Assembly (NCBI GenBank): GCA_947472795.1
Contig: CANJBL010000024.1
Coordinates: forward strand, 1-34,060
Direction of reading: 5' to 3'
DNA: 34,060 nucleotides
From: Fidelibacterota bacterium
GTDB lineage: Bacteria > Pseudomonadota > Alphaproteobacteria > Rhodospirillales > Rhodospirillaceae
In this document: positions 207 through 33,300 of the stretch, one piece after another
Position numbering within the stretch: the first letter of the stretch is position 1
Layout of the letters: the number at the start of each line of letters is the position of its first letter
Translations under genes and position numbers: made by a program
Notes under the pieces: model-generated
The model's input: the letters and a program-made list of their open reading frames with translations, nothing else
What the model was told of the DNA's origin: nothing
Databases searched by the model: none

Positions 207-1700
207 TCAGACAGGCGTTAAAGCGTCGGTTCGGATCGCCCCATCCGAAGCCCCGCGGTCAAGTGGCTGCGTCAATCCTGGAAAGCGCCTCCGATACCAA
301 TACCCGGCAACGACAACCGCCACGCAGATCATACTCGAATAAAATTCTTTGTAGTGAGCGCCGGTCAGCGCCATTGCGAGTAAGACAGCCAGCAGAATGG
401 CCATGGTCAGGTAGCTCAGCCATGGGAACAGCCACATTCTCACTTGAAGGCGCGATGGATCGACCTTCTCGAAATGCCGGCGCAACCTGATCTGCGCCAT
501 TGTCTCAATGAGATATATGACAATCATGATTGCGCCCGAAGCATCCACGAGGAACGCAAAAACCACTTTTGGCGAGACGATGGAGATCAGCACTCCGACG
601 TATCCCACGGAGCTTCCCAGTAGGATCGCGCGCACCGGCACGCTACGCGAATTAAGCTTCACCAACGACTGCGGCGCATCTCCCTGTGCGGCCAGCGTAA
701 AGAGAACGCGCGAGGTCACATACAGCCCGGAATTGAGGCAGGACAACACCGCGACCAGAACAATGAAGTTCATGATCGCGGCGGCCGTTGGAATTCCCAT
801 GACTTCCAACGCGGATGCGAATGGGGAATACCCAATTTTAATTTCCGGCCACGGCACAACCGATACGATCAAGGAAATCGAAAGAATGTAGAAAAGCGCA
901 ATGCGCACGACGACGGACGTCGTGAGTTTGGCAACCGTCCGGGCGGGTTCGTCTGACTCCGCCGCCGCGATGGTGGCTATTTCCGCGCCACATAGGGCGA
1001 ATATGACGCTCGTGACTCCTGACAATACTGCCATGGGTCCGAAGGGGGCAAAGCCACCATGGTCAAGCAAATTGGAAAAAGTTGGGCCGTTTGGGGACGC
1101 CAAGCCCGTGGCATATGCAAAAGCAAAGATGATGAAAGCAATAATGGCCGCAACCTTGAGAGAGGCGAACCAGAACTCAAACTCGCCGTAAGACCGGGCC
1201 GACATTAGATTGACGGCGGTCAGGGCCGATATCAGCCCCACTCCGATGAGCCACGAAGGTGCCGTTGGCAACAACAATTGGACAATGGTGCTGCCCGCGA
1301 TGGTCTCAATGGCGATGACAATTGCCCAGAAGTACCAATAGAGCCATCCATTCACGAAGCCGGCCCAATGACCCAGGCCCAATCGTGCATATTCCGTGAA
1401 TGATCCAATCTCGGGTGATGCCGTCGCCATCTCGCCAAGCATACGCATCACCAGCAGGATGATGGCACCAGCGATGAAATAGCTGACGACAACCGCCGGC
1501 CCAATGGTGGCAATAGAGGCGCTCGATCCGACAAAAAGACCTGCGCCAATGATCCCGCCAATGGAGATCATCGCGATGTGCCGCGATTTCAATTGCCTGC
1601 TGAGGCGTGGCGCTTTGAATAGAACTTGCCCGCCACAAAAAGACGCGGGTAAGGAATCGCCACTGTCATTTTGTGTGGCGGGCAAATCTACGGGAGTCAT
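207..1700 (-). CDS. APC-superfamily amino acid permease (GabP/AAT-like)
   Basis: This is an inner-membrane transporter, probably for an amino acid or amine such as GABA, beta-alanine or an aromatic amino acid. The 497-residue length and about 12 hydrophobic segments fit the AAT family. The first membrane segment carries the family signature IGGIIGAGLFVGS at residues 47-59, and GEMATASPEIGSF follows near residue 90. The ATG at 1700 was chosen because it gives the normal cytoplasmic N-terminus, although its Shine-Dalgarno is poor. It is the last gene of the minus-strand unit that starts with an omega-aminotransferase, 48 bp after the preceding stop. This suggests it imports the amino donor used by that enzyme. 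The substrate cannot be read from the sequence. Confidence 0.93.
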   Translation of the reverse strand: MTPVDLPATQNDSGDSLPASFCGGQVLFKAPRLSRQLKSRHIAMISIGGIIGAGLFVGSSASIATIGPAVVVSYFIAGAIILLVMRMLGEMATASPEIGSFTEYARLGLGHWAGFVNGWLYWYFWAIVIAIETIAGSTIVQLLLPTAPSWLIGVGLISALTAVNLMSARSYGEFEFWFASLKVAAIIAFIIFAFAYATGLASPNGPTFSNLLDHGGFAPFGPMAVLSGVTSVIFALCGAEIATIAAAESDEPARTVAKLTTSVVVRIALFYILSISLIVSVVPWPEIKIGYSPFASALEVMGIPTAAAIMNFIVLVAVLSCLNSGLYVTSRVLFTLAAQGDAPQSLVKLNSRSVPVRAILLGSSVGYVGVLISIVSPKVVFAFLVDASGAIMIVIYLIETMAQIRLRRHFEKVDPSRLQVRMWLFPWLSYLTMAILLAVLLAMALTGAHYKEFYSSMICVAVVVAGYWYRRRFPGLTQPLDRGASDGAIRTDALTPV

Positions 1701-1748
1701 CGGTAACGACTTTCGCCCTAAACGGATTTCCCTGATCCGCCTACTCTA

Positions 1749-3155
1749 TCAATAAAACAGTCCGACCGTATGCCAGTAAAAACCCGCGCCCGCTTGCTCG
1801 CGTCCCGGCCGCTGATCCCGCCCTACAACACCGCCGCCGTACACGGCTGTATTCATTTCCACCGCGCCAAGCTGAGGCTGTGAGGCAGAGGATTCACGCG
1901 GATCGCTGCCCGGATTGCTGTAGATATATCCGCCTTTTGCGTCGCCGTAGACGATCACATAGCGGTTATTTCCCTCCAAATCCCCCGGCTTCTTATCCCC
2001 TGCGAAGGCATAGACAGGGCTGCCCTTAAAGGCCCACTGCTTGGTGCCGTCGGTGCGGTCTATGACCTCCCAAAACCCCCATCCTTGATCCTTTGCAGTG
2101 GCCAGGAAGGGCTTCCAGGAATTTGTGCACTCACCCACGCACGCCGCTGTGCCCAAGGCCTTGGCGTCGTTGTACGTGATCGCATGGCCTTCGCGCGTTT
2201 CACGCGCGCCATACTGCAGCTGATACCGTGAGACGTAATAGAGCGAGAGCCCTTTGCCGTTCGTCATGATAGGACCACGGCCAGGAGAAGTTCTGACCTC
2301 GATACCCGGGGGCGTGAAGTTCCGCATCGCGAGCGCCGCATGGATAGCGGCATCGCCTGTAAAGATGCCGTTGACCTCGCCTGGCGAATAATCGCCGGTG
2401 AAGGTATAAAGGGCCTCGCCCTTGTAACCCCATTGCAGAGAGTGATCATCGGCCCGGGTGATGATTGAGAATTCACCTATGGGCCGCGCAATCGTGGAGG
2501 CACGTAGAGGACGCCACTCTTTCGCAAGCTTATGAGCAACAGGTGCCGCATAGACCGTTAAATGGTTTGTGGCGTCCACGAAACCGAAACCGCCCGCGAT
2601 GGCTAGGTCGTCAAGTTCCACAGTGCCGGGCATGACAGCGGTTTGATCCGGCATGTAGGCCGCGCGACGCCAGCTGGCCTTTGGTGAAAACACATCGCTG
2701 GCGGGGTCGGCCCATTTCGGATCTTCCTTGAGCGCAAAGCGCGCGCCGACGGGCTGGCCTGCAGGATCGGTACCCGAGTAGCGGTAGAGGGGTTTGCCTT
2801 GATAGGCCCACTGCTTGCCGCCGTCACTCCGAGACACGAGTGTGAAGTCGCCTAAAGCCTTTGCCTGAGGACCCGCAAGATAGGGCGGAAACTCTTTTGC
2901 ACACTCGGCAGCGCAGCTCGATGCACCGGATTGGTCAGCATCCGACGTATAAAGCGGTTTCCCCGTCGCATCTCCCAGCCGCCGCCAGAGGTATTGTGGG
3001 ATGGCATCGTCCATGGTCTTCATGACGTTGACCAGCGTAATGCCCTCAGGAGCCGAATAGGGCGCCGTGTAAGCTTGGGCGGTGCCCGAAGCAATGCCGA
3101 CAGCGAGCAACAGTCCTGCAGCAGCGCAACGCCGCGTAGGGGAAACCTTGGTCAT
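1749..3155 (-). CDS. Secreted PF03640-type repeat protein (lipoprotein_15 / COG4315-like)
   Basis: This is a 468-residue exported protein with a Sec signal peptide at residues 1-28 (hydrophobic core, then GTAQA). It contains three modules of the 'secreted repeat of unknown function' type. Each pairs a GKPLY-like strand with a phrase such as SDGGKQWAYQGKPLY (roughly residues 107-125), LQWGYKGEALY and KQWAFKGSPVY. Two modules keep the C-x3-C pair (SSCAAEC, AACVGEC) before a W/F-x-P motif. Function of the family is unknown, although it is often found with redox and c-type cytochrome genes. There is a good Shine-Dalgarno (TAGGAG) before the ATG. It starts 25 bp after the DUF1552 gene and is presumably in the same transcript. 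There is no lipobox cysteine, so it is probably soluble in the periplasm or secreted. Confidence 0.88.
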   Translation of the reverse strand: MTKVSPTRRCAAAGLLLAVGIASGTAQAYTAPYSAPEGITLVNVMKTMDDAIPQYLWRRLGDATGKPLYTSDADQSGASSCAAECAKEFPPYLAGPQAKALGDFTLVSRSDGGKQWAYQGKPLYRYSGTDPAGQPVGARFALKEDPKWADPASDVFSPKASWRRAAYMPDQTAVMPGTVELDDLAIAGGFGFVDATNHLTVYAAPVAHKLAKEWRPLRASTIARPIGEFSIITRADDHSLQWGYKGEALYTFTGDYSPGEVNGIFTGDAAIHAALAMRNFTPPGIEVRTSPGRGPIMTNGKGLSLYYVSRYQLQYGARETREGHAITYNDAKALGTAACVGECTNSWKPFLATAKDQGWGFWEVIDRTDGTKQWAFKGSPVYAFAGDKKPGDLEGNNRYVIVYGDAKGGYIYSNPGSDPRESSASQPQLGAVEMNTAVYGGGVVGRDQRPGREQAGAGFYWHTVGLFY

Positions 3156-3180
3156 AAGAACTCCTATCGCTGTAATTTGG

Positions 3181-4524
3181 TCAGGTCAGCACGCCGCTGA
3201 CGGGGCTGTTGCACTGGTTAGAGCCTGCGCCCCAGCTGCTCACGTGCACGCCCATCGCCTGCTGCATCGTCAAAGTCACGCGCGCCGCTGTATCGCCCGG
3301 CGTTGAGAAGTGCATGCCGGTCTTGATGGCGCCATTTGCGTTTCCAATGGTGATGAAGGGGTAGTTCAGGATCGAGTGCAGGCGCGGCGCCGAGTGATCC
3401 GTGAAGGCAAATAGGATCGAGCGGTCGAGCAGGCTCTTATCGCCTTCCTTCACGCTGTCGAGCATCGCAGCGTAGTCCCGCAGATTCTCGAAATATTGCC
3501 GCTGGAACCACGCCACTTTCACCTGGTAACCCAGCACCGGATCGACCGGCTCTTCATGCGTATAGCTGTGATGCGAGGTGGGATCGCCATCGCGACGAAG
3601 GCCTGTCATACCCTGAGTTATGGCGAGATTGACGACGCGCGTCTGATCGCAGGCCAATGCATGAGTCATCAGCGAGCAGAAGAGTTTATGGCGCACCATC
3701 CCCTCTTCAATCAGGAACAGAGGGTGCCCATCGTCCTTGGCTTCTTCCGGCTTCGAGCAGGCTTCCAACGGCGATGGCTTCTGCAATTGAATTTCAAGCT
3801 GCTGCTCTAAGGAGCGCAGCGCCGTAAAGTAGTAGTCAAGTTTCTGCTTGTCGGCCGCGCCGAGGGATTTGCTGAGATCGGCTCTCTGTTCGGAAATTCC
3901 CGACAGCACGCTTTTGGTGACCATTGTCTCAGGATCGGGCACGAACGTGGCGGCGTTCGGATCGCTATATCCGGGTCCAAAAATGCGTGTGTAGAGAGCC
4001 ATTGGGGACACTTCCCCGGGAACCTTGCCGCTCGCGAATGCGCTCCAGGACGCTTTCGGGTCCCCGTCGCAAACGACCACCAACGACTTGAAGCGCGACC
4101 GGCTGCCGATGTTGTCAGCAATGACACCGTCGACGCTATTGAAGTAATCGCCGGAGCTCGTAACCTTGCCCGTCATCAAACCCTGAACGCCGGTGAAGTG
4201 GGTTTGGTTGGCCACCCCATCGAGGAACACGTGAGAGCCGCTAAACAGGTTCAGCCGCTCTTTGAAGGGCTTCAAAGCCTCCAATTGCCGCGGCAATTCA
4301 TAATCGCGCCCGGCTGTTTTCGGCGCCCAATCTTGCTCCGAAAATCCGCAGGGCCAGAACCACGATGCAAATCGCGTCGGCAGCGGCGCTCCGCTCGCGG
4401 CGAAAGCGTTGCCGTTTTCGTTCAACAGCCCGTCAAAAATGGGCAGCCCTACGGTGACGGCCCCTCCGGCCAGCATGCCGCGCAAAACCCGGCGGCGGCT
4501 TAAGTTCTCAAGGGAAGATTTCAT
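3181..4524 (-). CDS. Tat-exported DUF1552 protein
   Basis: This 447-residue protein has a twin-arginine signal at its N-terminus (LSRRRVLRGMLAGG, then AASG), matching the DUF1552 family (PF07586). The phrase RFASWFWPCGFSEQDWAPK and a C-terminal half rich in His and Asp (HHSYTHEEP, FTDHSAPRLH) fit that family's alkaline-phosphatase/sulfatase-like fold. DUF1552 proteins are characteristically encoded next to DUF1592/DUF1588/DUF1585 proteins, as here. The molecular function is not established. The open frame extends upstream to 4665, but ATG 4524 is chosen because it begins the Tat signal and lies 35 bp after the upstream stop. The extension would overlap the preceding gene by about 100 bp. Confidence 0.9.
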   Translation of the reverse strand: MKSSLENLSRRRVLRGMLAGGAVTVGLPIFDGLLNENGNAFAASGAPLPTRFASWFWPCGFSEQDWAPKTAGRDYELPRQLEALKPFKERLNLFSGSHVFLDGVANQTHFTGVQGLMTGKVTSSGDYFNSVDGVIADNIGSRSRFKSLVVVCDGDPKASWSAFASGKVPGEVSPMALYTRIFGPGYSDPNAATFVPDPETMVTKSVLSGISEQRADLSKSLGAADKQKLDYYFTALRSLEQQLEIQLQKPSPLEACSKPEEAKDDGHPLFLIEEGMVRHKLFCSLMTHALACDQTRVVNLAITQGMTGLRRDGDPTSHHSYTHEEPVDPVLGYQVKVAWFQRQYFENLRDYAAMLDSVKEGDKSLLDRSILFAFTDHSAPRLHSILNYPFITIGNANGAIKTGMHFSTPGDTAARVTLTMQQAMGVHVSSWGAGSNQCNSPVSGVLT

Positions 4525-4559
4525 GTTGGATCTCCTAGCCTGTGATCTATGTGATTGGC

Positions 4560-6203
4560 TTAGACGCCGAGGCGGCTGTATGCGAGATCGCTCAGTGCGA
4601 TTGCGCGCAGCAACGCCATGACGTCGTAATGACTTTGAGAGAACGTCTGCTCTATCTGCCGCCATCTATCGTCCTTGGGCGGCACGTAACCTGTCGCGAA
4701 GGCAAAAGCGCGCTGCGCGACACAACTGGTCGCCGCCGGATCGTCATGCACGGCCTTGGCCAGGCCTTGCGGCCCTTGATAGGGCTTACCATTAAGTTCG
4801 CCGCTAGCATCGATGACAACGCCGTTCTCGGTGCTGCGGTATTCCCCTCCGGAATTAAAGTTCTCCAATGAGAGCCCCATAGGGTCTGTCAATTTATGGC
4901 AACCGGCGCACATGGCTTCGGAGCGATGGGCCTCGAGACGGGCGCGCGTGGTCTTGAACTCCGGATTGCCCGTGTCATCCACGAACTTGAACTCCACATT
5001 GCCCGGCGGAGGTGGCACGCGCTGGCAAAGGATGTGCTCTCGCAACGCCTTGCCGCGCGATGTCGCAGACGTGCGCGCCGACGGTGACCATAGCGTTGTA
5101 AAGCTTGCTTGCGACAGGATCCCAGAGCGGACATTGCCGTCTTCGTACTTATAGGTCACCCACCTTTGCGGCTGACCGTTCTCGGTCCTATCCACGACGG
5201 GCACGCCGTAAAGAGCGGCGAGATCCATCGTGAGGAAGGTATTGGGGGTCGTAAAAATATCGCGATAATCGCCATGTTTGTTGACGACGTGATCAACGAC
5301 CGTCCGCAGTGTTTGCTCCTGCGCTTGCTCTTTGATGAGGAGCGTATAACGCGGGAAGAATGCCGGATCTTTGGAAACGGATTCAAAATCGCTGAAAGAG
5401 AACATATCGGCAAACAGGCCGCGCACCCCATCCGCTACTCGGGGAGACTGCATCAGGCGATCCACCTGCTGCTCCAGTCCTTTCTGTGTATTCAGCTCCC
5501 CGTCTCGTGCGGCCCGCATCAGCTCGGCATCGGGCGTGCTGTTCCACAGGAAATAGCTGAGTTGGGAGGCCTTATCATAGGCATTGATACGTTCTTGGCC
5601 GGGGCGATCAGCCGCGGCCTCCATATTCCGGTATCTCAACAGAAATTTCGGCGAGACCAACATCTCTGTGAGTGCCAGGCGAACACCCGAGTAAAAATCG
5701 TGGAGCTGATCCGCTGCCTTACCCGCGGTCTCCACACTGCGCGCAATTTCCGCTTCGTTCAGAGCTTGCCGATACAAAGCCGGCACGACCCGCTTAAAGA
5801 AAGAAGCGGCGCACTGGTCGTCGCGGCTGGCAGCTGACTTCGGCGTACATCCGATCAATGTTGCGCGGTGACGTGTGTCAACCACTTGAGCCGCAATGCC
5901 GCGTGCAATGTGGTAATAACTTTCGAAACCACTGTCGGTGAAATTCTCGGTGCGCGCACCAACGGCCAACAGCCCCTGATCGCGCTGCTCTGGTTCAAAG
6001 CGGCCATTGATTTTAATCGAACTGTCGAAAACGTCGGAGATCGACTGCCGATACTGACTGGGTGTCAAGCGCAGGGTTGTCGGCGTGTCGGCGGATGCGG
6101 GCGCTGGGCTTGCTGCGTTAGCTAAGGTCTGCAACCCAATACCTGCGAGCGACACAGCGCCCGCGATCGCCAGCACCAACGACCCGCGATAGATAACTTT
6201 CAT
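4560..6203 (-). CDS. DUF1592/DUF1588/DUF1585 protein with one CxxCH motif
   Basis: This is a 547-residue exported protein with a signal peptide at about residues 1-31. The domain order follows the planctomycete-type architecture: a DUF1587-like start (LRLTPSQYRQSISDVF), DUF1595 (residues about 125-195), DUF1592 (about 205-335), DUF1588 (about 350-455) and DUF1585 (to the C-terminus, ending ALSDLAYSRLGV). A CAGCH motif at residues 432-436 within DUF1588 could bind one covalent haem c, so the protein may be a periplasmic redox enzyme. No activity is established for the family. Its ATG overlaps the upstream stop by 4 bp (ATGA), so it is translationally coupled to that gene. The DUF1552 gene follows 35 bp later, the usual partner. 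Confidence 0.92.
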   Translation of the reverse strand: MKVIYRGSLVLAIAGAVSLAGIGLQTLANAASPAPASADTPTTLRLTPSQYRQSISDVFDSSIKINGRFEPEQRDQGLLAVGARTENFTDSGFESYYHIARGIAAQVVDTRHRATLIGCTPKSAASRDDQCAASFFKRVVPALYRQALNEAEIARSVETAGKAADQLHDFYSGVRLALTEMLVSPKFLLRYRNMEAAADRPGQERINAYDKASQLSYFLWNSTPDAELMRAARDGELNTQKGLEQQVDRLMQSPRVADGVRGLFADMFSFSDFESVSKDPAFFPRYTLLIKEQAQEQTLRTVVDHVVNKHGDYRDIFTTPNTFLTMDLAALYGVPVVDRTENGQPQRWVTYKYEDGNVRSGILSQASFTTLWSPSARTSATSRGKALREHILCQRVPPPPGNVEFKFVDDTGNPEFKTTRARLEAHRSEAMCAGCHKLTDPMGLSLENFNSGGEYRSTENGVVIDASGELNGKPYQGPQGLAKAVHDDPAATSCVAQRAFAFATGYVPPKDDRWRQIEQTFSQSHYDVMALLRAIALSDLAYSRLGV

Positions 6204-7336
6204 TTCTTTACTCCGTCTGCACTTGCTGTCTTTTGCGTTGCGGGTGTTGTGAGGATTTTGCCGCCGAGCCCTTCATCCGATGCCGTCGCCACAATTTTTC
6301 CGTCGGCATTTGTGGCGAAAAAGGCTGGCAGCGCTTCTAAGCGCCAGGTCACAGATATCTTGCGGTTTTCACCGGTCTTCGGGTCTGGGTCGACGTCGGC
6401 CATCTTTTTCAAGGCCCAATAGATGCCGATGTTGTCGGCTCCTGCGCCCGGCCGGGCCGTAAACGTGTAGACCCAGGCATGCCAGTCGGCGTATCCGCCC
6501 CAATATCCAACAAGCTTACCACCCTGCTCGCTGTGGATGCGCATATGCGCATTCTGCAGATCGATCTGCGGATAGAAGGGCATGTTGCCCACGAGATAGA
6601 TGAACGCGGGTTTGATCGAGAGAACACCATTCTTGATTTCACCCGTCAGCACGTTATGCGAGCGCGGGCTCGGATCGAGAACGTAGGTGACCCCGCTCCT
6701 GACGCCGCCAGCCGCATCGCGTTCGAGATGACGCAGCGTGCGGTCCAAGGTGACGGTTACGGGGCCGTCCTTGCTGAGATCATTGCCGGTGACTTGGATC
6801 GTATAAGCAGGCGAGGTGTCGATCATCGCGCCCCAGGGCGCCGTCTCGGAGTACGGCAGAGCGGGCGGTGTGTACTGAAATGTTGGAACGCACCCAATCG
6901 CGCGCCACAGCTGGTTATCGACTTTCTCATGCGTCTCCGGATCGATGAACTTATTCGTTTCCGATCCGCCGAGATCAAAACCGTAAGCATACTTTCCCAC
7001 CACCGTTTCCATACCGGGATCTTTGGTCACCAAATCCGGGTAGTTCGCCGCAGGAACCGGTTTGCCGTCGAGGAGCGCAGTATCTCTGCGACGTCTATCC
7101 TGATTGCCGTCGGCGTAGGCGTCGACTTTGTTCGTGCTGGCCGCTTGTTGCGGGCAGTTGACGGGCGTGTCGGGATTGTTGGTTGCAACGGCGAACCAGC
7201 TCACAACGTAACCGCGTGTTTCAGCAGACGCTGCGGAAGCGCCAAAGACAATGGGCAGAAAGGCGCCGGCCGTGGCTGCAGCCAATCGGAGCGTGCGGGG
7301 CATTTTTGTTTCTCGAGGGCTTCGTTGCGTCATCAT
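6200..7336 (-). CDS. Secreted protein of unknown function
   Basis: I do not recognise the family. It is a 378-residue protein with a clear signal peptide (MPRTLRLAAATAGAFLPI, then SAASA-ETRG), so it is exported. The mature part is Gly-, Pro- and Trp-containing with no obvious membrane segment or haem motif. A conserved-looking central block reads WRAIGC…PPALPYSETAPWGAM. A C-terminal block is rich in aromatics (GYWGGYADWHAWVYTF). Start ATG 7336 is preferred because GGAGG lies 5 nt upstream; ATG 7333 is also possible, and an in-frame GTG at 7387 is unsupported. The stop overlaps the DUF1592 start by ATGA, so the two are coupled and probably act together outside the cytoplasm. It may be a dedicated partner of the DUF1592/DUF1552 pair. 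Confidence 0.85.
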   Translation of the reverse strand: MMTQRSPRETKMPRTLRLAAATAGAFLPIVFGASAASAETRGYVVSWFAVATNNPDTPVNCPQQAASTNKVDAYADGNQDRRRRDTALLDGKPVPAANYPDLVTKDPGMETVVGKYAYGFDLGGSETNKFIDPETHEKVDNQLWRAIGCVPTFQYTPPALPYSETAPWGAMIDTSPAYTIQVTGNDLSKDGPVTVTLDRTLRHLERDAAGGVRSGVTYVLDPSPRSHNVLTGEIKNGVLSIKPAFIYLVGNMPFYPQIDLQNAHMRIHSEQGGKLVGYWGGYADWHAWVYTFTARPGAGADNIGIYWALKKMADVDPDPKTGENRKISVTWRLEALPAFFATNADGKIVATASDEGLGGKILTTPATQKTASADGVKK

Positions 7337-7388
7337 GCTGACCTCCAGCTCCACTGTTTTCTGACCAAGCTCACGACAAAATCGCACT

Positions 7389-8804
7389 CTAGTTCACCGC
7401 GCTGATAGCCGTACGCAGCGTATCCATCACACGATCCACCTGCGCCTTTTCCATCACGAACGACGGCGAGAGAGCGATAATATCGCCTGTCGCACGCACG
7501 AGGACGCCGCGCTCGAAACAGCGCGCGAATACTTCGGACGCACGGGCGCCGGGCGCATCCGGCCGGGGGGCGAGTTGGATGCCGCCGATGAGGCCTAAAT
7601 TGCGGATGTCCTCGATATGCTGCAGGCCCTTAAGCTCGTGCAATTTCTGTTCGAAGTACGGCGCCAACTCCGCGGCGCGGTTGAAGAGACCTTCCTGGTT
7701 GTAGACGTCCAGGGCCGCGAGGCCGGCAGCACATGCGAGTGGATGCGCCGAGTAGGTATAGCCGTGAAAGAGCTCGATGCCTCCACCGGCCTTGTCCGCC
7801 AACGCCGAGAAGATCCCTTCCCGCGCCATGACGCCGCCCATGGGAACAGCCCCGTTTGTCATGCCTTTGGCCATGGTGATGAGGTCTGGTTTGACGTCGA
7901 AATACTGGGCGGCAAAGTTAGCGCCCACGCGGCCAAATCCCGTGATGACCTCGTCGAAGATCAGCAAGATGCCGTGCTTGTCGCAAATCTTGCGCAAGCG
8001 TTGCAGATAGCCCTTCGGCGGCGGCAGCACGCCTGTAGAACAGGCGACCGGCTCGACGATGACACAGGCGATGGTAGAAGCGTCATGGAGCGCAACGATG
8101 CGCTCGAGATCATCGGCCAGTTCCTCGCCGTATTGGGGCTGGCCTTTGGTAAAACGGGATTTGTCCATATCCAGCGTATGGCGCATGTGGTCGACGCCTG
8201 CGAGCAGGGGACCGAACATCTTGCGGTTGGCAACCATTCCGCCCACGGAAATGCCGCCAAAACCGACGCCATGATAGCCGCGCTCGCGACCGATCATGCG
8301 CGTGCGCGTGACTTGGCCGATAGAACGTTGATAGGCGATGGCAATCTTCAGCGCTGTATCGACGGCTTCTGAACCGGAGTTGCAGAAGAAGACGTGCGAG
8401 AAGCCTTTCGGGGCTAGGTCGATTAGCCGCGCGGAAAGTTCGAATGCTTTTGGGTGGGCGATTTGGAAAGGCGGCGCGTAATCCATCGTTGCCGCTTGCT
8501 GCTGGATAGCCGCCACGATCTTGGGATGATTGTGGCCGGCATTGCAGCACCACAAGCCCGAAACGGAATCGAGAATCTCCCGGCCATCGTCCGTGCGGTA
8601 ATAGAGGCCTTCCGCCGAAACGAAAATCCTGGGCGATGCCTTAAAGGCGCGGTTGGGCGTAAAGGGAAGCCAATAAGCCTCCATATCGGCGACGCTCGTC
8701 GCCTGCTCCCGCATTTTGCTGATACGCTCTTCGCTCGAACCCAAAGCGCCCTCCACAGCCGCAATGATTTCGTCGTAAATTGGCGATCTAATTTTGTGCG
8801 TCAC
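7389..8804 (-). CDS. Omega-amino acid--pyruvate aminotransferase (class III, PLP)
   Basis: This is a fold-type I class III aminotransferase that moves an omega-amino group (beta-alanine, GABA or an arylalkylamine type) to pyruvate. Diagnostic stretches are AYWLPFTPNRAFK, CCNAGHNHPKI, FCNSGSEAVDTALKIA, the LIFDEVITGFGR aspartate region and the PLP lysine in TMAKGMTNG (about K313). The family is usually about 440-450 residues. The GTG at 8804 has GAGG 6 nt upstream and gives 471. An internal ATG at 8714 gives 441 residues, closer to known enzymes, so the start is uncertain. It is the first gene of the minus-strand unit and divergent from a MocR regulator, a common arrangement for aminotransferase operons. 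The enzyme is cytosolic and forms an aldehyde. No dedicated aldehyde dehydrogenase lies in this unit. Confidence 0.94.
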   Translation of the reverse strand: MTHKIRSPIYDEIIAAVEGALGSSEERISKMREQATSVADMEAYWLPFTPNRAFKASPRIFVSAEGLYYRTDDGREILDSVSGLWCCNAGHNHPKIVAAIQQQAATMDYAPPFQIAHPKAFELSARLIDLAPKGFSHVFFCNSGSEAVDTALKIAIAYQRSIGQVTRTRMIGRERGYHGVGFGGISVGGMVANRKMFGPLLAGVDHMRHTLDMDKSRFTKGQPQYGEELADDLERIVALHDASTIACVIVEPVACSTGVLPPPKGYLQRLRKICDKHGILLIFDEVITGFGRVGANFAAQYFDVKPDLITMAKGMTNGAVPMGGVMAREGIFSALADKAGGGIELFHGYTYSAHPLACAAGLAALDVYNQEGLFNRAAELAPYFEQKLHELKGLQHIEDIRNLGLIGGIQLAPRPDAPGARASEVFARCFERGVLVRATGDIIALSPSFVMEKAQVDRVMDTLRTAISAVN

Positions 8805-8920
8805 CACCAACCTCTGATGACGCTACATCAGTTCAGCAAGAGGTGCGCTCTCCCTCGGCGAGCCCGCTATTTCAGAGCGAGATGCCATGGCGCATCCATT
8901 GCTTTACCCAGGGATTTGAC

Positions 8921-8975
8921 CGACAATCCTGCATATATGGAATATCCACTTCTGAGGAATTCACGTGGACCAGTT
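8921..8975 (+). promoter_or_regulatory. Candidate MocR-regulator operator, copy A (paired direct repeat)
   Basis: The region contains CCACTT at 8946-8951 and CCAGTT at 8970-8975, 24 bp start to start. It lies in the divergent promoter between the aminotransferase and the MocR gene and runs into the regulator's GTG start. About 45 of 55 positions match copy B near 14284-14339, with the same 24-bp spacing despite small indels between them. MocR-family regulators typically bind direct repeats spaced over about two helical turns. Assignment to this MocR is inference. Confidence 0.6.
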
Positions 8976-10419
8976 AACGAATTCCGGGCCGGTTGGGCGC
9001 ATTAATTATGGCATGGCGCGGCGCATTACGGAGTCCGTTAAAGACCAAATTCGCCGTGGCATTTACAAAGCCGGAGACAAGCTTCCTTCGTCGCGTGCCT
9101 TTGCAGTTGAGTGGGGAGTTTCCCGCACGACAGTAACAGCGGCCTACGGTCAACTGGCGGCGGAAGGGTACCTCATCACGCACACGGGTACGCGCGTCAA
9201 AGTTGCCCCAGGACTCGAACAAGATCCTAGCGCCCCACAGAGCACTGCCGACTCTTCCATGCGTCATGTTTCAACTTACACGCATCGCCTCCTTTCATTT
9301 CAACATCTCTCACTACCCGAAAAGATTCGCATAGCGGATTTCCGTTACGGTGATTTGGCGCCCACGGATTTCCCCGTTCTGGCCTGGCGCCGCGCGCTCA
9401 ACAAGGTGATGCTGCGTCGGCGCACGCAATTACGCTACGACCAGCCGCAAGGATACCCTCCCTTACGGGCCGCTCTTCAAAGCTACCTTTGGCGCGCACG
9501 CGGAATTCGCTGTACATGCGACCAAATCGTAATCGTGAACGGATCTCAGCAAGGGATGGATTTGTGCGCGCGCCTTCTTCTTGATCCAGGCGATCGCTTT
9601 ATAATGGAAAACCCGGGCTATCTGCATGCGCGACAGTCTTTTGAATCTGTCGGTGGCGTTGGGATTTCCATTTCAGTCGATCAGGAAGGATTACAAACTG
9701 GGTCTTTGCCTTCTGCACGGCTCGCTTACGTAACGCCATCGCATCAATTTCCATTGGGCGCCGTGCTCTCTGCCGCGCGGCGCCGCGCTCTGCTCGCATG
9801 GGCAACGAGCAATCGCTCTTATATTGTAGAGGACGACTATGATGGGGAATTCCGTCACGGTATTGCGCCTATAGCGCCCCTTCAGACAATGGATCCCAAT
9901 TCTGTGATCTATATTGGGACGTTGTCAAAAACCCTTTCGCCGACGCTGCGCCTTGGCTACCTGATTGTGCCGAATAGTTTGCGCCCCGCGTTTGCCGGCG
10001 CAAAGCGCCTCACCGATCGTCACAGCTCCCTCTACGATCAAGAAGCATTGACCGAGCTCCTGGAAAGCGGCGTCTATGAACGCCATGTTCGCAGCATGCG
10101 CCGAAAATATGCTCAGCGGAGGAACGTGCTCCTTGAAGCCTTAAATAAGAAGCTGGGTGACGCCGTCACCATCGCCGGTGCAGATACAGGATTGCATATC
10201 CTACTTTGGCTCAAAGGGATTTCAGCCAACTGCGAGAGCAATATTGTCGATGATGCCCGCGCCCTGGGCGTGGGGCTTTATCCCATATCGCCCCTCTTCG
10301 ATAAAACCGGACCAAAGCCCACGGCCACCGGAATTAATTTGGGGTACGCAGGCCTCAGCGACACCGCTTTACGTCAGGGCGTTTCCATCTTGGCAAAAGT
10401 CATTGCCAAGTACAGATGA
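8965..10419 (+). CDS. MocR-family regulator (GntR winged helix fused to aminotransferase domain)
   Basis: This 484-residue PLP-dependent transcription factor has an N-terminal GntR winged helix (residues about 13-80; GDKLPSSRAFAVEWGVSRTTV) joined to a fold-type I aminotransferase-like effector domain. The PLP lysine is present (K322 in GTLSKTLSPTLRLGY), as are the VEDDYDGEFR aspartates, so it should bind PLP and sense an amino compound. The GTG at 8965 has GAGGA 6 nt upstream. The next ATG (9013) would clip the first helix. It is divergent from the aminotransferase operon, which it most likely controls, and probably also itself, because the operator touches its start codon. It converges on the quinoprotein gene with only 16 bp between stops. 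Confidence 0.94.
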   Translation: MDQLTNSGPVGRINYGMARRITESVKDQIRRGIYKAGDKLPSSRAFAVEWGVSRTTVTAAYGQLAAEGYLITHTGTRVKVAPGLEQDPSAPQSTADSSMRHVSTYTHRLLSFQHLSLPEKIRIADFRYGDLAPTDFPVLAWRRALNKVMLRRRTQLRYDQPQGYPPLRAALQSYLWRARGIRCTCDQIVIVNGSQQGMDLCARLLLDPGDRFIMENPGYLHARQSFESVGGVGISISVDQEGLQTGSLPSARLAYVTPSHQFPLGAVLSAARRRALLAWATSNRSYIVEDDYDGEFRHGIAPIAPLQTMDPNSVIYIGTLSKTLSPTLRLGYLIVPNSLRPAFAGAKRLTDRHSSLYDQEALTELLESGVYERHVRSMRRKYAQRRNVLLEALNKKLGDAVTIAGADTGLHILLWLKGISANCESNIVDDARALGVGLYPISPLFDKTGPKPTATGINLGYAGLSDTALRQGVSILAKVIAKYR

Positions 10420-10435
10420 ACCACTCTCGCCGATA

Positions 10436-12442
10436 TCAGGGCAGCGCCAGCGCGGCAACTTCCGATGTTTTGTCGTGCCAACCCAAGGTCACCACGATGT
10501 ATTGCTTGCCATTGTACATATAGGTCATCGGAGCACCCGAGGTTCCGAGGCCGAGATCCATCTGCCATACAACCTTGCCTGTGGCCTTGTCGAAAGCCTG
10601 GAACTTCGTTCCGCCAGCCCAGGGCGGCACCAACGACGGACCATTGGGGCCGTCACGCCCCTCGCCCATGAAGAGCAGCGTTTTTGTCACCAAGGGCGAC
10701 GGCCGGCTGTGGCTGCCGAGAGGCGGAAGATTGAGACCCTTCAGCGCGGGATGATTGCGCGGACCATCTCCGTTCGCGACCTTCCATAGAAGCTCACCCT
10801 TGTTCATGTCATAGGCAGCTATGCCGCCATAGGGAGGTTTGGTGAGCGGCAGCTCGGTCATATCACCGGGCTTCGCGGCTTTGCGCTGACTTGCACCCGG
10901 GAACGGGATTTCTAAATTTCGCTCGGAGTCGGCTTTGCGTTCGTAATCGAACGACGAATTATCATCGCCTTTGATATCGAGGGAATGCACCGCATTACGT
11001 ACAAAAGGCACATACAGCTTGCCCGTTTCCGGATCGAACGCTGCGCCCGGCCAATTGGCGGCACCGGTCGTGCCCGGCATCATGATGATTTCCTGGTCGG
11101 TCCGCTGCGGCGAATACACCGTATTGCCCGGCACGTACTTCTTGAAGATATCCAAGGCTTGTTGATGTAATTCCGGTGTGAAATCCGTGAGGTCTTTCTC
11201 CGTCAGCTGTTGCATGTCGACGGGCTCTGGCTTCGTCGGGATCGGCTGCGTCGGCGAGTAGTATTCGCCCGGAATATTGCCGGCCGGAACCGGCTTCTCC
11301 TCGATCGGCCACACCGGCTTTCCATTCACGCGGTTGAGCACATAGACGTAAGCCTGCTTGGAAATTTGCGCGAGCGCCGGAATCTTTTTGCCATCAACCG
11401 TGATGTCGATCAGCGTCGGCGGCGCCGGGTGATCAAAATCCCAGATGTCGTGATGGATAGTCTGGAAGTGCCAGACGCGTTTACCGGTCTTGGCATCGAG
11501 ACACAAAATAGTATCGCCGAACAGATTGTCGCCGGGACGATGGCCGCCGAAGAAATCGTTCGAGGGCGCTTCCGTGGCGATATAGACGTAACCCAATTTT
11601 TCGTCGGCGGTCAGCCAGGTCCAGGTGCCACCGAGACCATTGATGTCGGCGGAATTGTTCTTCCAGGTGTCGTAGCCGAACTCACCCGGGCGGGGGATGA
11701 CGTGGAACGTCCAGACCAGCTTACCCGAACGTGCGTCATAGCCGCGAATGTCGCCCGGAGCGTCTAGAGCCGGCTTGGCGCTGGGCGGCGCTTTTTCGCG
11801 GTCCAGTTCCGGCACACCGGCGACAACCACTGTATTGCCGATGACCACCGGGAACGACGACCAGGAATAGCTCTTGATCGGCGAGTTCGGGCGCGGGTCC
11901 GCGTAAACCCTGAGGTCCACGGCACCATCGGCACCAAAGCCGGGATAACGCTCGCCGGTCTTGGCATTGACGGCGATGAGGGTGGAACCATCCAGCGCGA
12001 AAATGCGCGCGTCTTTTCCATCGGTCCAATAGCTGATGCCGCGGCTACGGCCAACTTCCTTAGCCTGTTTGTCGACCCACAGCACTTTGCCGGTGAGCGG
12101 ATCCATCGCAACGACGGGACCGGCCTCACTGCGCATATACAGTTTGCCGTCCACGAAAAGCGGTGTCTGTTCAAAGTTGTTGCCGACGACCTGTTTTCGC
12201 CCGTTGAGTATTGCTTCTGGCGGCGCGGCTGGCACGCGCCAGACGACCTTCAGATCTTTCACGTTCTCGGCATTGATCTGGTCAAGGGGCGCGTACTTCG
12301 TGCCACCCAGCGTACCGGCGTAATATTGCCAGTTGGTGTTTTTTGGTGCGGCGGAGGCAGCACTCACGGCACGTTGCGCAACGAAAGCTGATGAAGTTAA
12401 AGCCGTTGCCAGCAAGCCCGCTACAAAGATTCGCCGTTTCAT
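10436..12442 (-). CDS. Periplasmic PQQ-dependent quinoprotein dehydrogenase
   Basis: This 668-residue eight-bladed beta-propeller quinoprotein oxidises an alcohol, polyol or aldehyde in the periplasm and passes electrons to the respiratory chain. A signal peptide (KRRIFVAGLLATALTSSAF) is followed by propeller repeats. Typical phrases include NNFEQTPLFVDGKLY, WHFQTIHHDIWDFDHPAPPTL and TTGAANWPGAAFDPETGKLY. It lacks the five N-terminal membrane helices of membrane glucose dehydrogenase, and no fused cytochrome c domain is seen. TTG and GTG codons precede it, but ATG 12442 has GGAGGA 6 nt upstream and begins the signal peptide. It follows the tannase gene by 111 bp on the same strand, so it may oxidise an alcohol released by that esterase. 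No PQQ synthesis genes are in the window. Confidence 0.92.
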   Translation of the reverse strand: MKRRIFVAGLLATALTSSAFVAQRAVSAASAAPKNTNWQYYAGTLGGTKYAPLDQINAENVKDLKVVWRVPAAPPEAILNGRKQVVGNNFEQTPLFVDGKLYMRSEAGPVVAMDPLTGKVLWVDKQAKEVGRSRGISYWTDGKDARIFALDGSTLIAVNAKTGERYPGFGADGAVDLRVYADPRPNSPIKSYSWSSFPVVIGNTVVVAGVPELDREKAPPSAKPALDAPGDIRGYDARSGKLVWTFHVIPRPGEFGYDTWKNNSADINGLGGTWTWLTADEKLGYVYIATEAPSNDFFGGHRPGDNLFGDTILCLDAKTGKRVWHFQTIHHDIWDFDHPAPPTLIDITVDGKKIPALAQISKQAYVYVLNRVNGKPVWPIEEKPVPAGNIPGEYYSPTQPIPTKPEPVDMQQLTEKDLTDFTPELHQQALDIFKKYVPGNTVYSPQRTDQEIIMMPGTTGAANWPGAAFDPETGKLYVPFVRNAVHSLDIKGDDNSSFDYERKADSERNLEIPFPGASQRKAAKPGDMTELPLTKPPYGGIAAYDMNKGELLWKVANGDGPRNHPALKGLNLPPLGSHSRPSPLVTKTLLFMGEGRDGPNGPSLVPPWAGGTKFQAFDKATGKVVWQMDLGLGTSGAPMTYMYNGKQYIVVTLGWHDKTSEVAALALP

Positions 12443-14452: not shown

Positions 14453-14926
14453 TCAGCTCTTTAACTCGATGTACAGCGAACGATAGGCTTTATTGATGAC
14501 CGTCTTGGGTGTCCTTGAATCCTTAGGATGCCATACGACGGTGCCAGCCGGGTGCTTGCCGGTGACCACGCTACCGTCCAATGCGATCGCGCTCTCGGGT
14601 CCGCGTACCGGAGCCGCACCGGCGTTCGGGTTGGCGGGCGCGCCGGGCGGGCGGATCACCGTGTAGTCCCCTTCATCGACCCATACGATTATTTGATCGA
14701 ATGGACGCCGCTTGCCGCCTTCCTTTTTAAAGCCCGCGGGATGGGACGCGAGCGTTATGCGCGCTCGGCTATTTTCGATCAGGACCTTAGAAGGCGCTCC
14801 GCTCGCCACATCGGGTTCATATCCGACCTCATCTGCGGCTTGGACATGCTGACCGTAGCTCAACCCTGCGGCTATTCCACCAACCGCCGTAGCGGCAACG
14901 AGAGCAGTGAACAAAGTCTTTCTCAT
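14453..14926 (-). CDS. Small exported cupin-like protein
   Basis: This 157-residue protein has a signal peptide (RKTLFTALVAATAVGG…VQAAD). The mature domain reads like a small beta-barrel of the cupin superfamily: ENSRARITLASHPAGF, then QIIVWVDEGDYTV, then TGKHPAGTVVWHPKDS and a closing YRSLYIELKS. The histidines expected for a metal site are only partly present, so an enzymatic role is doubtful. The frame is open to 14995, but ATG 14926 is preceded by GGGGAGGG and begins the signal peptide. It stands alone between the IS407-type remnant and the tannase promoter, with a hairpin right after its stop. No function can be assigned. Confidence 0.8.
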   Translation of the reverse strand: MRKTLFTALVAATAVGGIAAGLSYGQHVQAADEVGYEPDVASGAPSKVLIENSRARITLASHPAGFKKEGGKRRPFDQIIVWVDEGDYTVIRPPGAPANPNAGAAPVRGPESAIALDGSVVTGKHPAGTVVWHPKDSRTPKTVINKAYRSLYIELKS

Positions 14927-14953
14927 GAAAATCCCTCCCCTTTTATATGGAAG

Positions 14954-15171
14954 CCACGTGGCTCCCTGAACCACGGACCATCCTAAATTTTCCAATAGTC
15001 CTTTTCACGCTTAAACAACTGGATCATCTCGATTTCTCAAAACTGGTTATTTTCCCTCAACCTGCCGCAACTTCGCGACGATCTCTTCGGCTGTATGTCT
15101 CTTTCTCGCCATCTTGGTCCTCCTTGGAAAAACCATACCTCAGGATGGACCACTTCAAGGGGGGCACCTCA
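14954..15171 (-). mobile_element. Internally deleted IS407-type (IS3-family) element, MITE-like
   Basis: On the minus strand the element begins TGAGGTGCCCCCC at 15171, carries a Shine-Dalgarno (AAGGAGG) and then only the first codons of OrfA. It ends about 60-90 bp later near 14954-14984, where the plus strand reads GTGGCTCCCTGAACC…GACCATCCT, an imperfect match to the other end. The right boundary is uncertain because the terminal bases there are degenerate. It is about 0.2 kb instead of a full 1.2-1.3 kb element. Confidence 0.55.
15047..15112 (-). pseudogene. IS407-type transposase OrfA, 5' fragment
   Basis: The minus strand encodes MARKRHTAEEIVAKLRQVE, followed by GK and a stop. The first 19 residues are the well-known N-terminus of OrfA of IS3-family, IS407-group elements, which normally run to about 90 residues. 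The original Shine-Dalgarno (AAGGAGG) is kept. All the helix-turn-helix, leucine-zipper and OrfB sequence is missing. Confidence 0.8.
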
Positions 15172-30447: not shown

Positions 30448-33300
30448 TTAGAAGCGGAAGCGAACACCTGCTCTGAACTGCCGTCCCATCATGTCGTACA
30501 GAGACGCACTCGTCTGCGCGCCATAGGTGACTGAGTTCGTGGGGAACGGCTGCGGGTCGCGATCGAACAGGTTATCCACATTAAAGAAGGCTTCCGCGTT
30601 GTTCTGCCCATCGCGATAGAAGCGGTAGGCCAGCGAGATGCTGTTTAGGAAATAAGAGCCTACGTGGTTCTTGTCGACGGTCGTCAAACCAGGAATGACC
30701 GGGCAAGCGGACGTGCACTGATAGAAGTCAGCCGACATGTTCACAGGCCCAACGAAACGTGTCGTCCACGTCGCGCGGAACGCATCGAGCGAATACGTTC
30801 CATTAAACGCGGCAGTCCACTTCGGCGCAGGCACACCAAGCAAACCACCACCTGCCGACCCCGCCTGTTGACTGATCGTGGTGCCGTTATTGGTATAAAG
30901 GCTAATCACATGGGTGGCGACTAAGCGCAAACGGACGTCGCCATTCAAGGGCGACCAAATGTCGCTAAGCGGCTTGGCATAGCTAGCCTCGAAATCTATC
31001 CCCTTGGCCAATTGCGCGTTTTGATTGCGCGGCAGCAGGAAGATGGTGTCGAGCTCGCCGTTTGGTAAGCGCGTAATATTAGAGCAGAAGGATTGGTTGC
31101 CGGCAAAGCACTGAGCCAAGGTGTAGGCCTCTGTCACTGCCGCGACCGCCCCCTTGATTTTGATGCGATAGAAGTCGACTGACGTACTAAAGCCAGACAA
31201 CCAGCTCGGCTGATAGACGACGCCGACACCGGTCGTGTCGGCATTTTCAGGATTCAGGCCCGGGTTACCGGACTGCGTATAGTAGTAACCATAGGTGCCG
31301 TTAGCCTTGAACGGGTCGGCGATAGAGCCATGCTTGGTCTGCGGGCGGGCGAAGAGATCCACGAGGTTGGGCGCGCGAATGTCACGCGATTGCGTGATGC
31401 GAAAACGAACGTCGTCCATCGGTTGGTATGTTGCGCCAAGTTTCCAGGTAGTGACGTAACCGGAAACACTATAGTTGGTGAAGCGGACCGCCGCGTTTAC
31501 ATCCAGCGATTTTGCCCAGCTCGTACCCTTTGCCAATGGCACAACGGTTTCCAGGGCTCCTTCAACCACGCTCTGGTGCGCATTGAACCCGACAGTATTG
31601 GTGGAGAACCAACCGCGAATATCGGAGATGGGATCATTGATTGAGCGAACACTGTCCCTGCGCCACTCTGCACTGACGGCCAACGAAATCGGCCCCGCCC
31701 AGCTGGAGAATGGTTCCCCGGTTGTGCTTCCGCCAACAACCTGCTGACCCATGCGCTGCGTTAAGTGCGGGGAGCCCATAACATAGTTGAGCGCAGCCTC
31801 CGAAGCTACGTCTGTGCCGAACACGTTAAACGCGACGCAGCCAGGGTTCGTCGCGGCATTGCGGCAAACGATTTGACCGTTCGGACCGCGAACAGCGTCC
31901 ATGGCTGCGGCGAAGTTGGCGCTATTAATTTGCGGCGGGTCATTGATGGAGGCTTTGGCAAATCCTGTCTCTCCATAGACGTCCCATGACCACTTCGTAT
32001 CAAAAGCGTTGAACTTTCCTTTGGCACCGATGACATACTCATTGTTTAGGCGAGAAAATACAGGCCCGAAAGGAATGACGGAACGGATCGTCGTACCGAA
32101 GGGGAGCGAAGTAAGTCCCAATGCCGCCGCACGAGCAGCGACCGATGCAGGCAGGAAGGGATTCGACGCGCTCACTGCCAAAGTCCCGAAATAGTAATCG
32201 TAGCAGCAGTAGCTTCTCGTCTTGGCAAGGCCGTTGTTGAATTCAACAAACACCTGAACGTCGTCGCTTATATCGTAGCTCGCGTGCGCAAAGAGGTGAC
32301 TTGCGTTAATCCCGCTATTTAAGGACCCCGCGCCATTCATCGTCGATGACTTCCAGTCACCGCCGATATTGTATGTGCCCGAGACAAAGCTGCCGTAGTT
32401 GTAGTTGAACGGCTGACCGCCTGGCCCGAAGGCGATACCCTTCAAAGGACCGCCGGAGATAATGCCGCCCGGATAGCCAGAGGCGAGACCGACACTGGAT
32501 GCGATGATCTGCTGCGGCTGCCCGTTGCCCGCGACGTACGCAGGATTCACCATGCGTACCAAGCCTGTCATATTCCAATCGCGCTGTGTGCCCGGCACCA
32601 GATCTTCGTGCGCGAAATCACCTTCCAGAATCACGTGGCCACGGTCCCCGGCGAAAGTCGTGCCGGCTGCGAGCTGGAGCTTGTATTGGCGATCGTCGCC
32701 GTGACCCGAGACGCCACCCTGGATCGATCCTTTTACGCCGGTAAAGTTTGTATCGAGAACGAAGTTGACCACGCCAGCCAACGCATCAGATCCATAAACT
32801 GCGGAGGCGCCACCGGTGACCACATCAACGCGGCTAATGAGCGCGTCAGGGAATAAGTTAATGTCGACAGAGCCATCGACGAATTCGGGGACATAGCGAC
32901 GCCCGTCGAAGAGCACGAGAGTTCTGTTAATCCCCAAACCACGGAGGTTGAGGTTGTTACCACCCGCTTTCCCGGACGTGCTGGCGGTGGAATTGTTGGT
33001 GGTCGTGCTGCCCTGGAACGTCGGCATCTGGTTCAACACGTCGGCTATATTGGTTTTGGCGGCATCCTGAAGCTGTTCCACACCGACGACGGTGACCGGT
33101 GTTGGGGCTTCATATCCGTCGCGGACGATACGTGATCCGGTAATGACAATCTCTTCCACAGGCTCCTGAGCTGTTTGTGCTTCCGCCGCGCGCGCTGGTG
33201 CGGGCATGCAGGCAAGCAACGCAAATGCGCTCACTGCGGTACCCGCAATGAATTTGCGTGCGCGAAGCGGGTTGTGGATGGCTTTTGTCACATCGATCAT
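30448..33300 (-). CDS. TonB-dependent outer-membrane receptor
   Basis: This 950-residue receptor has a signal peptide of about 38 residues (APARA-AEAQ), a TonB-box-like VEEIVITGSRIV near residue 50, a plug domain (TPVTVVGVEQLQDA … GGNNLNLRGLG … VDVVTGGASAVYGSDALAGVVNFV) and a long beta-barrel ending in the usual aromatic residue (RAGVRFRF). The plug style is common among sphingomonads, Caulobacter relatives and Steroidobacter-like bacteria, where such receptors take up plant-derived or aromatic compounds. It has its own terminator and is not clearly co-transcribed with neighbours. GGGAG precedes the ATG. It is the only outer-membrane uptake gene in the window, so it probably imports the conjugated substrate. 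Confidence 0.95.
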   Translation of the reverse strand: MIDVTKAIHNPLRARKFIAGTAVSAFALLACMPAPARAAEAQTAQEPVEEIVITGSRIVRDGYEAPTPVTVVGVEQLQDAAKTNIADVLNQMPTFQGSTTTNNSTASTSGKAGGNNLNLRGLGINRTLVLFDGRRYVPEFVDGSVDINLFPDALISRVDVVTGGASAVYGSDALAGVVNFVLDTNFTGVKGSIQGGVSGHGDDRQYKLQLAAGTTFAGDRGHVILEGDFAHEDLVPGTQRDWNMTGLVRMVNPAYVAGNGQPQQIIASSVGLASGYPGGIISGGPLKGIAFGPGGQPFNYNYGSFVSGTYNIGGDWKSSTMNGAGSLNSGINASHLFAHASYDISDDVQVFVEFNNGLAKTRSYCCYDYYFGTLAVSASNPFLPASVAARAAALGLTSLPFGTTIRSVIPFGPVFSRLNNEYVIGAKGKFNAFDTKWSWDVYGETGFAKASINDPPQINSANFAAAMDAVRGPNGQIVCRNAATNPGCVAFNVFGTDVASEAALNYVMGSPHLTQRMGQQVVGGSTTGEPFSSWAGPISLAVSAEWRRDSVRSINDPISDIRGWFSTNTVGFNAHQSVVEGALETVVPLAKGTSWAKSLDVNAAVRFTNYSVSGYVTTWKLGATYQPMDDVRFRITQSRDIRAPNLVDLFARPQTKHGSIADPFKANGTYGYYYTQSGNPGLNPENADTTGVGVVYQPSWLSGFSTSVDFYRIKIKGAVAAVTEAYTLAQCFAGNQSFCSNITRLPNGELDTIFLLPRNQNAQLAKGIDFEASYAKPLSDIWSPLNGDVRLRLVATHVISLYTNNGTTISQQAGSAGGGLLGVPAPKWTAAFNGTYSLDAFRATWTTRFVGPVNMSADFYQCTSACPVIPGLTTVDKNHVGSYFLNSISLAYRFYRDGQNNAEAFFNVDNLFDRDPQPFPTNSVTYGAQTSASLYDMMGRQFRAGVRFRF

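Follow-up and report, generated by a model that had tools for sequence, protein, structure and literature searches.

The locus discussed here raises the question of whether six closely spaced genes on one strand form a single system and, if they do not, which of them belong together and what they may do. It lies on contig CANJBL010000024.1 (assembly GCA_947472795.1, Rhodospirillaceae in the GTDB lineage), of which a stretch of 34,060 nucleotides, hereafter the window, was analysed. On the minus strand, in the order of transcription, the genes encode a class III omega-aminotransferase (AptA), a secreted protein of an unnamed family that we call X, a DUF1592-type protein, a DUF1552 protein, a PF03640 repeat protein and an amino acid permease. 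An earlier note on this DNA had treated the whole run as one exported redox-type system. The genes that it listed and the ATGA overlap of the DUF1592 start with the X stop are confirmed, and the grouping is real, but the boundaries were drawn too wide: the conserved unit is 1749–7336 only, and consists of X, DUF1592, DUF1552 and PF03640. It is as good as certain that these four genes are a real, conserved extracytoplasmic module, which is inherited as a unit.

A four-gene unit in many copies

The core of the module is X (6200–7336, minus strand), a secreted protein of 378 residues for which Pfam, NCBIfam, PHROGs and PADLOC gave no match; a GTG upstream, at 7387, is an alternative start. The DUF1592-type protein (4560–6203, minus strand) carries one CxxCH motif and the domains PSD3-PSD5-PSD4-PSCyt3-PSD2, each above its cut-off. 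The DUF1552/HXXSHH protein (3181–4524, minus strand; PF07586, 153.8 bits for a cut-off of 30) has a twin-arginine signal, and the last gene of the unit encodes the PF03640 repeat protein (1749–3155, minus strand; 111.4 bits for a cut-off of 24.4, in three stretches). Judged by eye, all four proteins have export signals.

Profile searches of the window's own genome (3.2 Mb in 51 contigs) gave 21 matches for X, 22 for DUF1552 and 20 for DUF1592, while PF03640 matches were counted by hand in 26 open frames, one of them under the cut-off. Gene maps and grouping yielded 15 clean four-gene units, 14 of which have the order X-DUF1592-DUF1552-PF03640 and one the order DUF1592-DUF1552-PF03640-X. Four more places with all four genes, which are cut by the limits of the extracted stretch or have a doubled DUF1552 gene, were read by hand and bring the total to 19. 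The partial sets are one unit without X and one pair without DUF1592 and DUF1552; the isolated genes are one X (extracted locus L016), one DUF1552 (L026) and a group of three PF03640 genes (L025). X is followed by DUF1592 in 14 of 20 cases, DUF1592 by DUF1552 in 18 of 20 and DUF1552 by PF03640 in 15 of 18; here and below such adjacency counts are rough and probably low, being based on our own calls of open reading frames in the extracted loci, among which some module genes were missed and some calls are false. The unit is strongly expanded, with many diverged copies per genome in the usual order on one strand.

Two details of this genome may be added. In L015, L011/L012 and L020/L021 the order is DUF1592-DUF1552-PF03640-X, as if a head-to-tail array had been cut one gene later. 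The three lone PF03640 genes (L025:6334-12145) lie between two TonB-receptor matches, with no X, DUF1592 or DUF1552 adjoining.

For the four proteins, pairwise distances are correlated, with Mantel r values of 0.91–0.97 over the 15 own units and 0.83–0.92 over 71 units; for no pair of proteins did any of 2000 permutations reach the observed r in either set. This correlation implies that the unit moves whole. The four proteins do not diverge at the same pace: the mean identity within the genome is 0.42 for X and 0.41 for PF03640, versus 0.53 for DUF1592 and 0.55 for DUF1552.

X was found in all 19 searched genomes of the window's genus (the window's included), with 2–40 copies each, and in one searched genome each of four of the six other genera of the family; it is absent from the 16 searched genomes of other families of the order. 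In a draw of 249 genomes from the phylum (again including the window's), in which scoring was confined to the 7 or 8 best candidates per genome, X occurs in 2 and DUF1552 in 4, and the second genome with X has X, DUF1592 and DUF1552 next to each other (L146). A collection scan with one peptide pattern, limited to the best 80 of 105 matches, led to 77 loci, including some from Steroidobacter gossypii, Peristeroidobacter soli, Sphingomonas laterariae and Sphingobium vermicomposti. Named strains of Sphingobium, Sphingomonas, Novosphingobium and Steroidobacter carry the unit, in some cases on plasmids that measure about 1 Mb or more. X itself is found on 13 plasmid records, of which four were inspected; one of these, TomTYG65, has X alone. 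On the plasmid of Sphingobium herbicidovorans, X is annotated as two overlapping frames (L174:11405-12750).

In genomes of the same family, X is followed by DUF1592 in 44 of 61 cases, DUF1592 by DUF1552 in 38 of 44 and DUF1552 by PF03640 in 35 of 36; the corresponding fractions for the loci of the collection scan are 28/81, 33/38 and 35/40. X is therefore more loosely attached than the other three genes, since in the collection scan it often has no DUF1592 gene after it. Because the same four genes recur together in the window's genome and in others, their grouping is far beyond chance. The earlier note's grouping of X with the DUF1592/DUF1552 pair and PF03640 stands; a search for homologues that are mostly apart did not speak against it, in spite of the many loci outside the family where X lacks an adjoining DUF1592.

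The association of X with DUF1552 was also considered in eight genomes, chosen from loci already known to carry X, where 15 of 17 X genes lie no more than 2.4 kb from a DUF1552 gene and the remaining two are 12 and 56 kb off. Among the 102 DUF1552 matches of these genomes, the 14 that are paired with X all score 147–169 bits, while the unpaired ones score 228–360 bits (86 matches) or 138–141 bits (two matches). The gap between the paired matches and these 86 unpaired ones shows that X goes with one divergent group of DUF1552 proteins. A low score alone is no marker of pairing: Pseudomonadota without X score 118 and 131. Two Acidobacteria records (the genomes of L039 and L038) have 43 and 47 DUF1552 matches, of which one per genome is paired with X.

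Predicted properties of the proteins

No Pfam match was found in any of 81 aligned X proteins, whose invariant residues include C61, D140, R145 and C149. The structural model of X is strand-rich, with a predicted local distance difference test score (pLDDT) of 86 and a predicted template modelling score (pTM) of 0.83. It has no fold match in the PDB at E up to 0.001 and nothing among viral models; several up-and-down barrels (TbpB, avidin-like, GFP, ApoD) appear in its weak PDB list, at E of at least 0.2, and were disregarded. Nothing useful came from profile searches of PDB sequences. A defence-system reading was rejected, there being no PADLOC match.

The CxxCH motif of the DUF1592 protein is at residues 432–436, in the PSCyt3 domain, and all 41 aligned sequences have it. 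Four more cysteines are invariant in the same alignment, which would be enough for two disulfides. The model of this protein is also confident (pLDDT 90.5, pTM 0.88) and finds no PDB fold either, at E up to 0.001, so that a fold-based function was dropped for both X and DUF1592. In the DUF1552 protein, the first arginine of the twin-arginine signal is present in 42 of 42 aligned sequences and the second in 40 of 42, and many histidine, aspartate and glutamate residues are invariant. It has a TDH motif, which may resemble that of the alkaline phosphatase superfamily.

A proposed function and its rivals

The best reading of the module, to which we give about an even chance, is that of a TonB-fed envelope system for the redox processing of imported organic compounds. 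The composition of the module is observed; its chemistry, as we infer it, could run as follows. A TonB receptor would bring an organic compound into the periplasm, where binding or presenting it would fall to X and the PF03640 protein, the two fastest to diverge and perhaps specific to the substrate. The catalytic pair would be the DUF1552 protein, exported through the twin-arginine pathway, and the CxxCH-bearing DUF1592 protein, and electrons would travel by way of a haem to a c-type cytochrome (in sphingomonads, cytochromes c' and b561) and from there into the respiratory chain. Separate copies would serve separate compounds, as in polysaccharide utilisation loci. In the case of the window, the module may yield an amine or an omega-amino acid, which the permease and AptA would handle.

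In the window's genome, 8 of 37 TonB-receptor matches lie no more than 5 kb from a unit, where 1.4 are expected (P 6e-5). Of the 12 receptors that bear the motif GSRI..GYEAPTP, 7 are close to a unit, versus 1 of 25 for the other receptors (7/12 versus 0/20 when five receptor fragments of less than 500 residues are left out), a comparison that is not independent, the motif having first been noticed in linked receptors. The window has a receptor of this type (30448–33300, minus strand), about 23 kb from its unit.

Secreted CxxCH proteins are encoded by 12 of 212 genes no more than 310 bases from a unit, by 4 of 356 at 310–3000 bases and by 3 of 493 at 3 kb or more; the comparison of near and far gives P 8e-5, which is too favourable, as the limit of 310 bases was chosen after the candidate list had been seen and some loci (L072, L082) are related. 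Nine of the twelve adjacent proteins have a haem-protein match in Pfam, and these nine alone give P 0.0016. Secreted proteins of 740–770 residues with one CxxCH, alike by eye, are found beside or near modules at L111:15536-17854, L124:15488-17707 and L122:13694-15961; they have a weak carboxypeptidase-regulatory match, below the cut-off.

Five sphingomonad copies of X-DUF1592-DUF1552 were inspected, all without an adjoining PF03640 gene. Cytochrome c' adjoins four of them (Sphingomonas laterariae, Sphingobium sp. TomTYG74, Sphingobium herbicidovorans and Novosphingobium sp. RL4), and cytochrome b561 follows in the first three of these; neither is among the genes listed for the Sphingobium vermicomposti copy. 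On both Sphingobium plasmids (TomTYG74 and S. herbicidovorans) a TonB receptor lies upstream of the copy, with an AraC regulator in between in S. herbicidovorans. The suggestion, made in the earlier note, of a haem-linked extracytoplasmic function gains from this context: the conservation of CxxCH, the cytochromes beside copies in other genomes and the presence of a CcmF gene in the window's genome are all consistent with it.

A number of observations weigh against the proposed function, besides the reservations about the receptor motif and the 310-base limit. Within the extracted stretches, receptors of the motif type were found in only 8 of 18 own loci, 5 of 40 loci of the same family and 8 of 76 others, and the 12 adjacent CxxCH proteins all belong to copies in genomes other than that of the window. 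The DUF1592 model, which matches no PDB fold, fits no known cytochrome fold (best E 2.5; 0 of the 37 listed structures is a cytochrome), so that it is the motif and the neighbours that make this protein a putative haem binder. X and PF03640 genes are also found apart from the other two. The co-divergence of the four proteins follows from their joint inheritance and is no proof of a complex. Last, the immediate neighbours are very mixed, with 135 Pfam families among 123 scanned proteins (drawn from 188, the TonB receptors having been removed beforehand), so that no substrate is indicated.

Among the alternatives, the one that survives best is that of a surface or envelope module, involved in adhesion, matrix or sensing, whose copies have diversified for the sake of variation and not for catabolism. 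The export signals on all four proteins would suit such a role, and so would the strand-rich X and the repeats of PF03640, the two proteins that diverge fastest; no catalytic fold was found for the X and DUF1592 models. However, the association with TonB receptors and cytochromes and the many invariant histidine, aspartate and glutamate residues of DUF1552 argue the other way, and we consider this explanation unlikely.

It may also be that the electrons flow in the opposite direction, in a reductive or oxygen-activating system in which electrons from quinol reach the DUF1592/DUF1552 pair through cytochromes b561 and c'. The position of both cytochromes directly downstream in Sphingobium and Sphingomonas is what this proposal has in its favour; some copies, however, have proteins related to pyrroloquinoline quinone (PQQ) or quinohemoproteins in their vicinity, a weak pointer to oxidation instead. 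We consider the proposal rather improbable. We do not claim a link with PQQ dehydrogenases in the window's genome, where only one matched gene is near a module (that of the window, 10496–12331).

The aminotransferase and the permease, which the earlier note counted as parts of the system, suggest a more specific scheme, dedicated to the oxidation of amines or amino acids: the module would free an amine or omega-amino acid, the permease would import it and AptA would transaminate it. This agrees with the tight six-gene run on the minus strand of the window, with the AptA homologue that adjoins X, on the opposite strand, in L134, and with the haem-binding subunit of a quinohemoprotein amine dehydrogenase directly after the module in L037 (L037:14469-14993). 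Upstream of the Steroidobacter gossypii copy there are a class III aminotransferase, a transporter that resembles a gamma-aminobutyric acid (GABA) permease (60% identical to that of the window) and then two amidohydrolases, but the two aminotransferases share only 30% identity. The remaining copies in the window's genome have other neighbours; only copy C16 likewise has a permease and a fragment of an aminotransferase in its vicinity, separated from it by a receptor and a regulator. Class III aminotransferases make up 2 of the 123 scanned neighbours, one of them being the window's own, and the AptA profile had 5 matches among all genes of the loci that its scan covered. Since the neighbours differ and the aminotransferase is rare, the two genes are not counted as parts of the unit and an amine source as general substrate is rejected; a link to amines confined to this locus may hold, in view of the Steroidobacter aminotransferase and permease, while the scheme as a whole is very unlikely.

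Known systems and other genes of the window

The known systems that come closest to the module are the PSCyt/PSD pairs with partners of the DUF1552 class in Planctomycetes and Verrucomicrobia (and, in our searches, Acidobacteria), which are made of the same Pfam families and reach high copy numbers in some genomes. The present unit differs from them in that X and usually PF03640 join DUF1592 and DUF1552, and in that its DUF1552 proteins belong to the low-scoring group described above, the 86 high-scoring unpaired matches coming from two Acidobacteria. Two Pseudomonadota without a match for X encode giant DUF1592 proteins of 2157 and 1862 residues adjoining DUF1552 (L144:2720-9193 and L145:10856-16444), whereas the DUF1592 proteins considered here have about 550–640 residues.

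Polysaccharide utilisation loci likewise combine a TonB receptor with exported proteins and exist in many diverged copies with mixed catabolic neighbours; unlike them, the present unit has a haem motif and, in other genomes, cytochromes. The Pfam scan of the unit showed no SusC/SusD pair or glycoside hydrolase, SusD not having been searched for as such and 25 of the 135 neighbour families having been listed; three Sphingobium plasmids have glycosidase genes no more than 14 kb from X. Systems made of a quinohemoprotein or PQQ dehydrogenase and a cytochrome c are also exported and linked to cytochromes, and a few copies of the module lie near such enzymes, but none of the four unit proteins matches a PQQ family.

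According to PMC5615132, the PSCyt3-type genes of freshwater Verrucomicrobia usually adjoin a gene family of no known function and have neighbourhoods like those of glycoside hydrolase genes; PSCyt/PSD genes are placed there beside such families and often near sulfatase genes, and their function is given as unknown. PMC2754498 takes the PSD1/PSC2 domains of a Rhodopirellula protein to suggest a role in redox reactions, and PMC7789669 lists, from a comparison of domains, DUF1588, DUF1587, DUF1592 and DUF1595 among the unknown domains to be added for anaerobic respiration. PMC6004670 and PMC11495043 are, in the portions available, silent on function. The literature searched, which took in few subscription papers, describes neither X nor the four-gene unit.

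It is possible, and we put it forward tentatively, that the modules represent an undescribed class of Gram-negative nutrient acquisition, namely TonB-coupled, haem-linked oxidative modules for different dissolved organic compounds, with dozens of copies in one genus. If so, they would have expanded as polysaccharide loci did in Bacteroidetes, and would rest in part on two proteins with predicted folds unlike solved structures. DUF1592 and DUF1552 have no known function despite their high copy numbers in some bacteria; a compact unit with cytochrome partners in named strains makes the function of these proteins testable by gene deletion.

The other genes of the window are outside the conserved unit. 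AptA (7389–8810, minus strand; NF052567, 719 bits for a cut-off of 500) and the GABA-permease-like amino acid permease (207–1700, minus strand) flank it, and a MocR/PdxR-like regulator (8965–10419, plus strand) is divergent from AptA. Between 12554 and 28190 there are genes for the catabolism of aromatic compounds, encoding a tannase/feruloyl esterase, a sulfatase, a VanA-like Rieske oxygenase, a LigB dioxygenase, an FAA hydrolase, an HpcH aldolase and a flavin adenine dinucleotide (FAD) monooxygenase. Near some modules, secreted proteins of about 150–180 residues are encoded in arrays (L018:5323-8541, L011:9894-11652); ten members of a 15-member cluster of such proteins are from the window's genome, and those that were scanned have no Pfam match. 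By eye, the product of 14453–14995 in the window resembles them.

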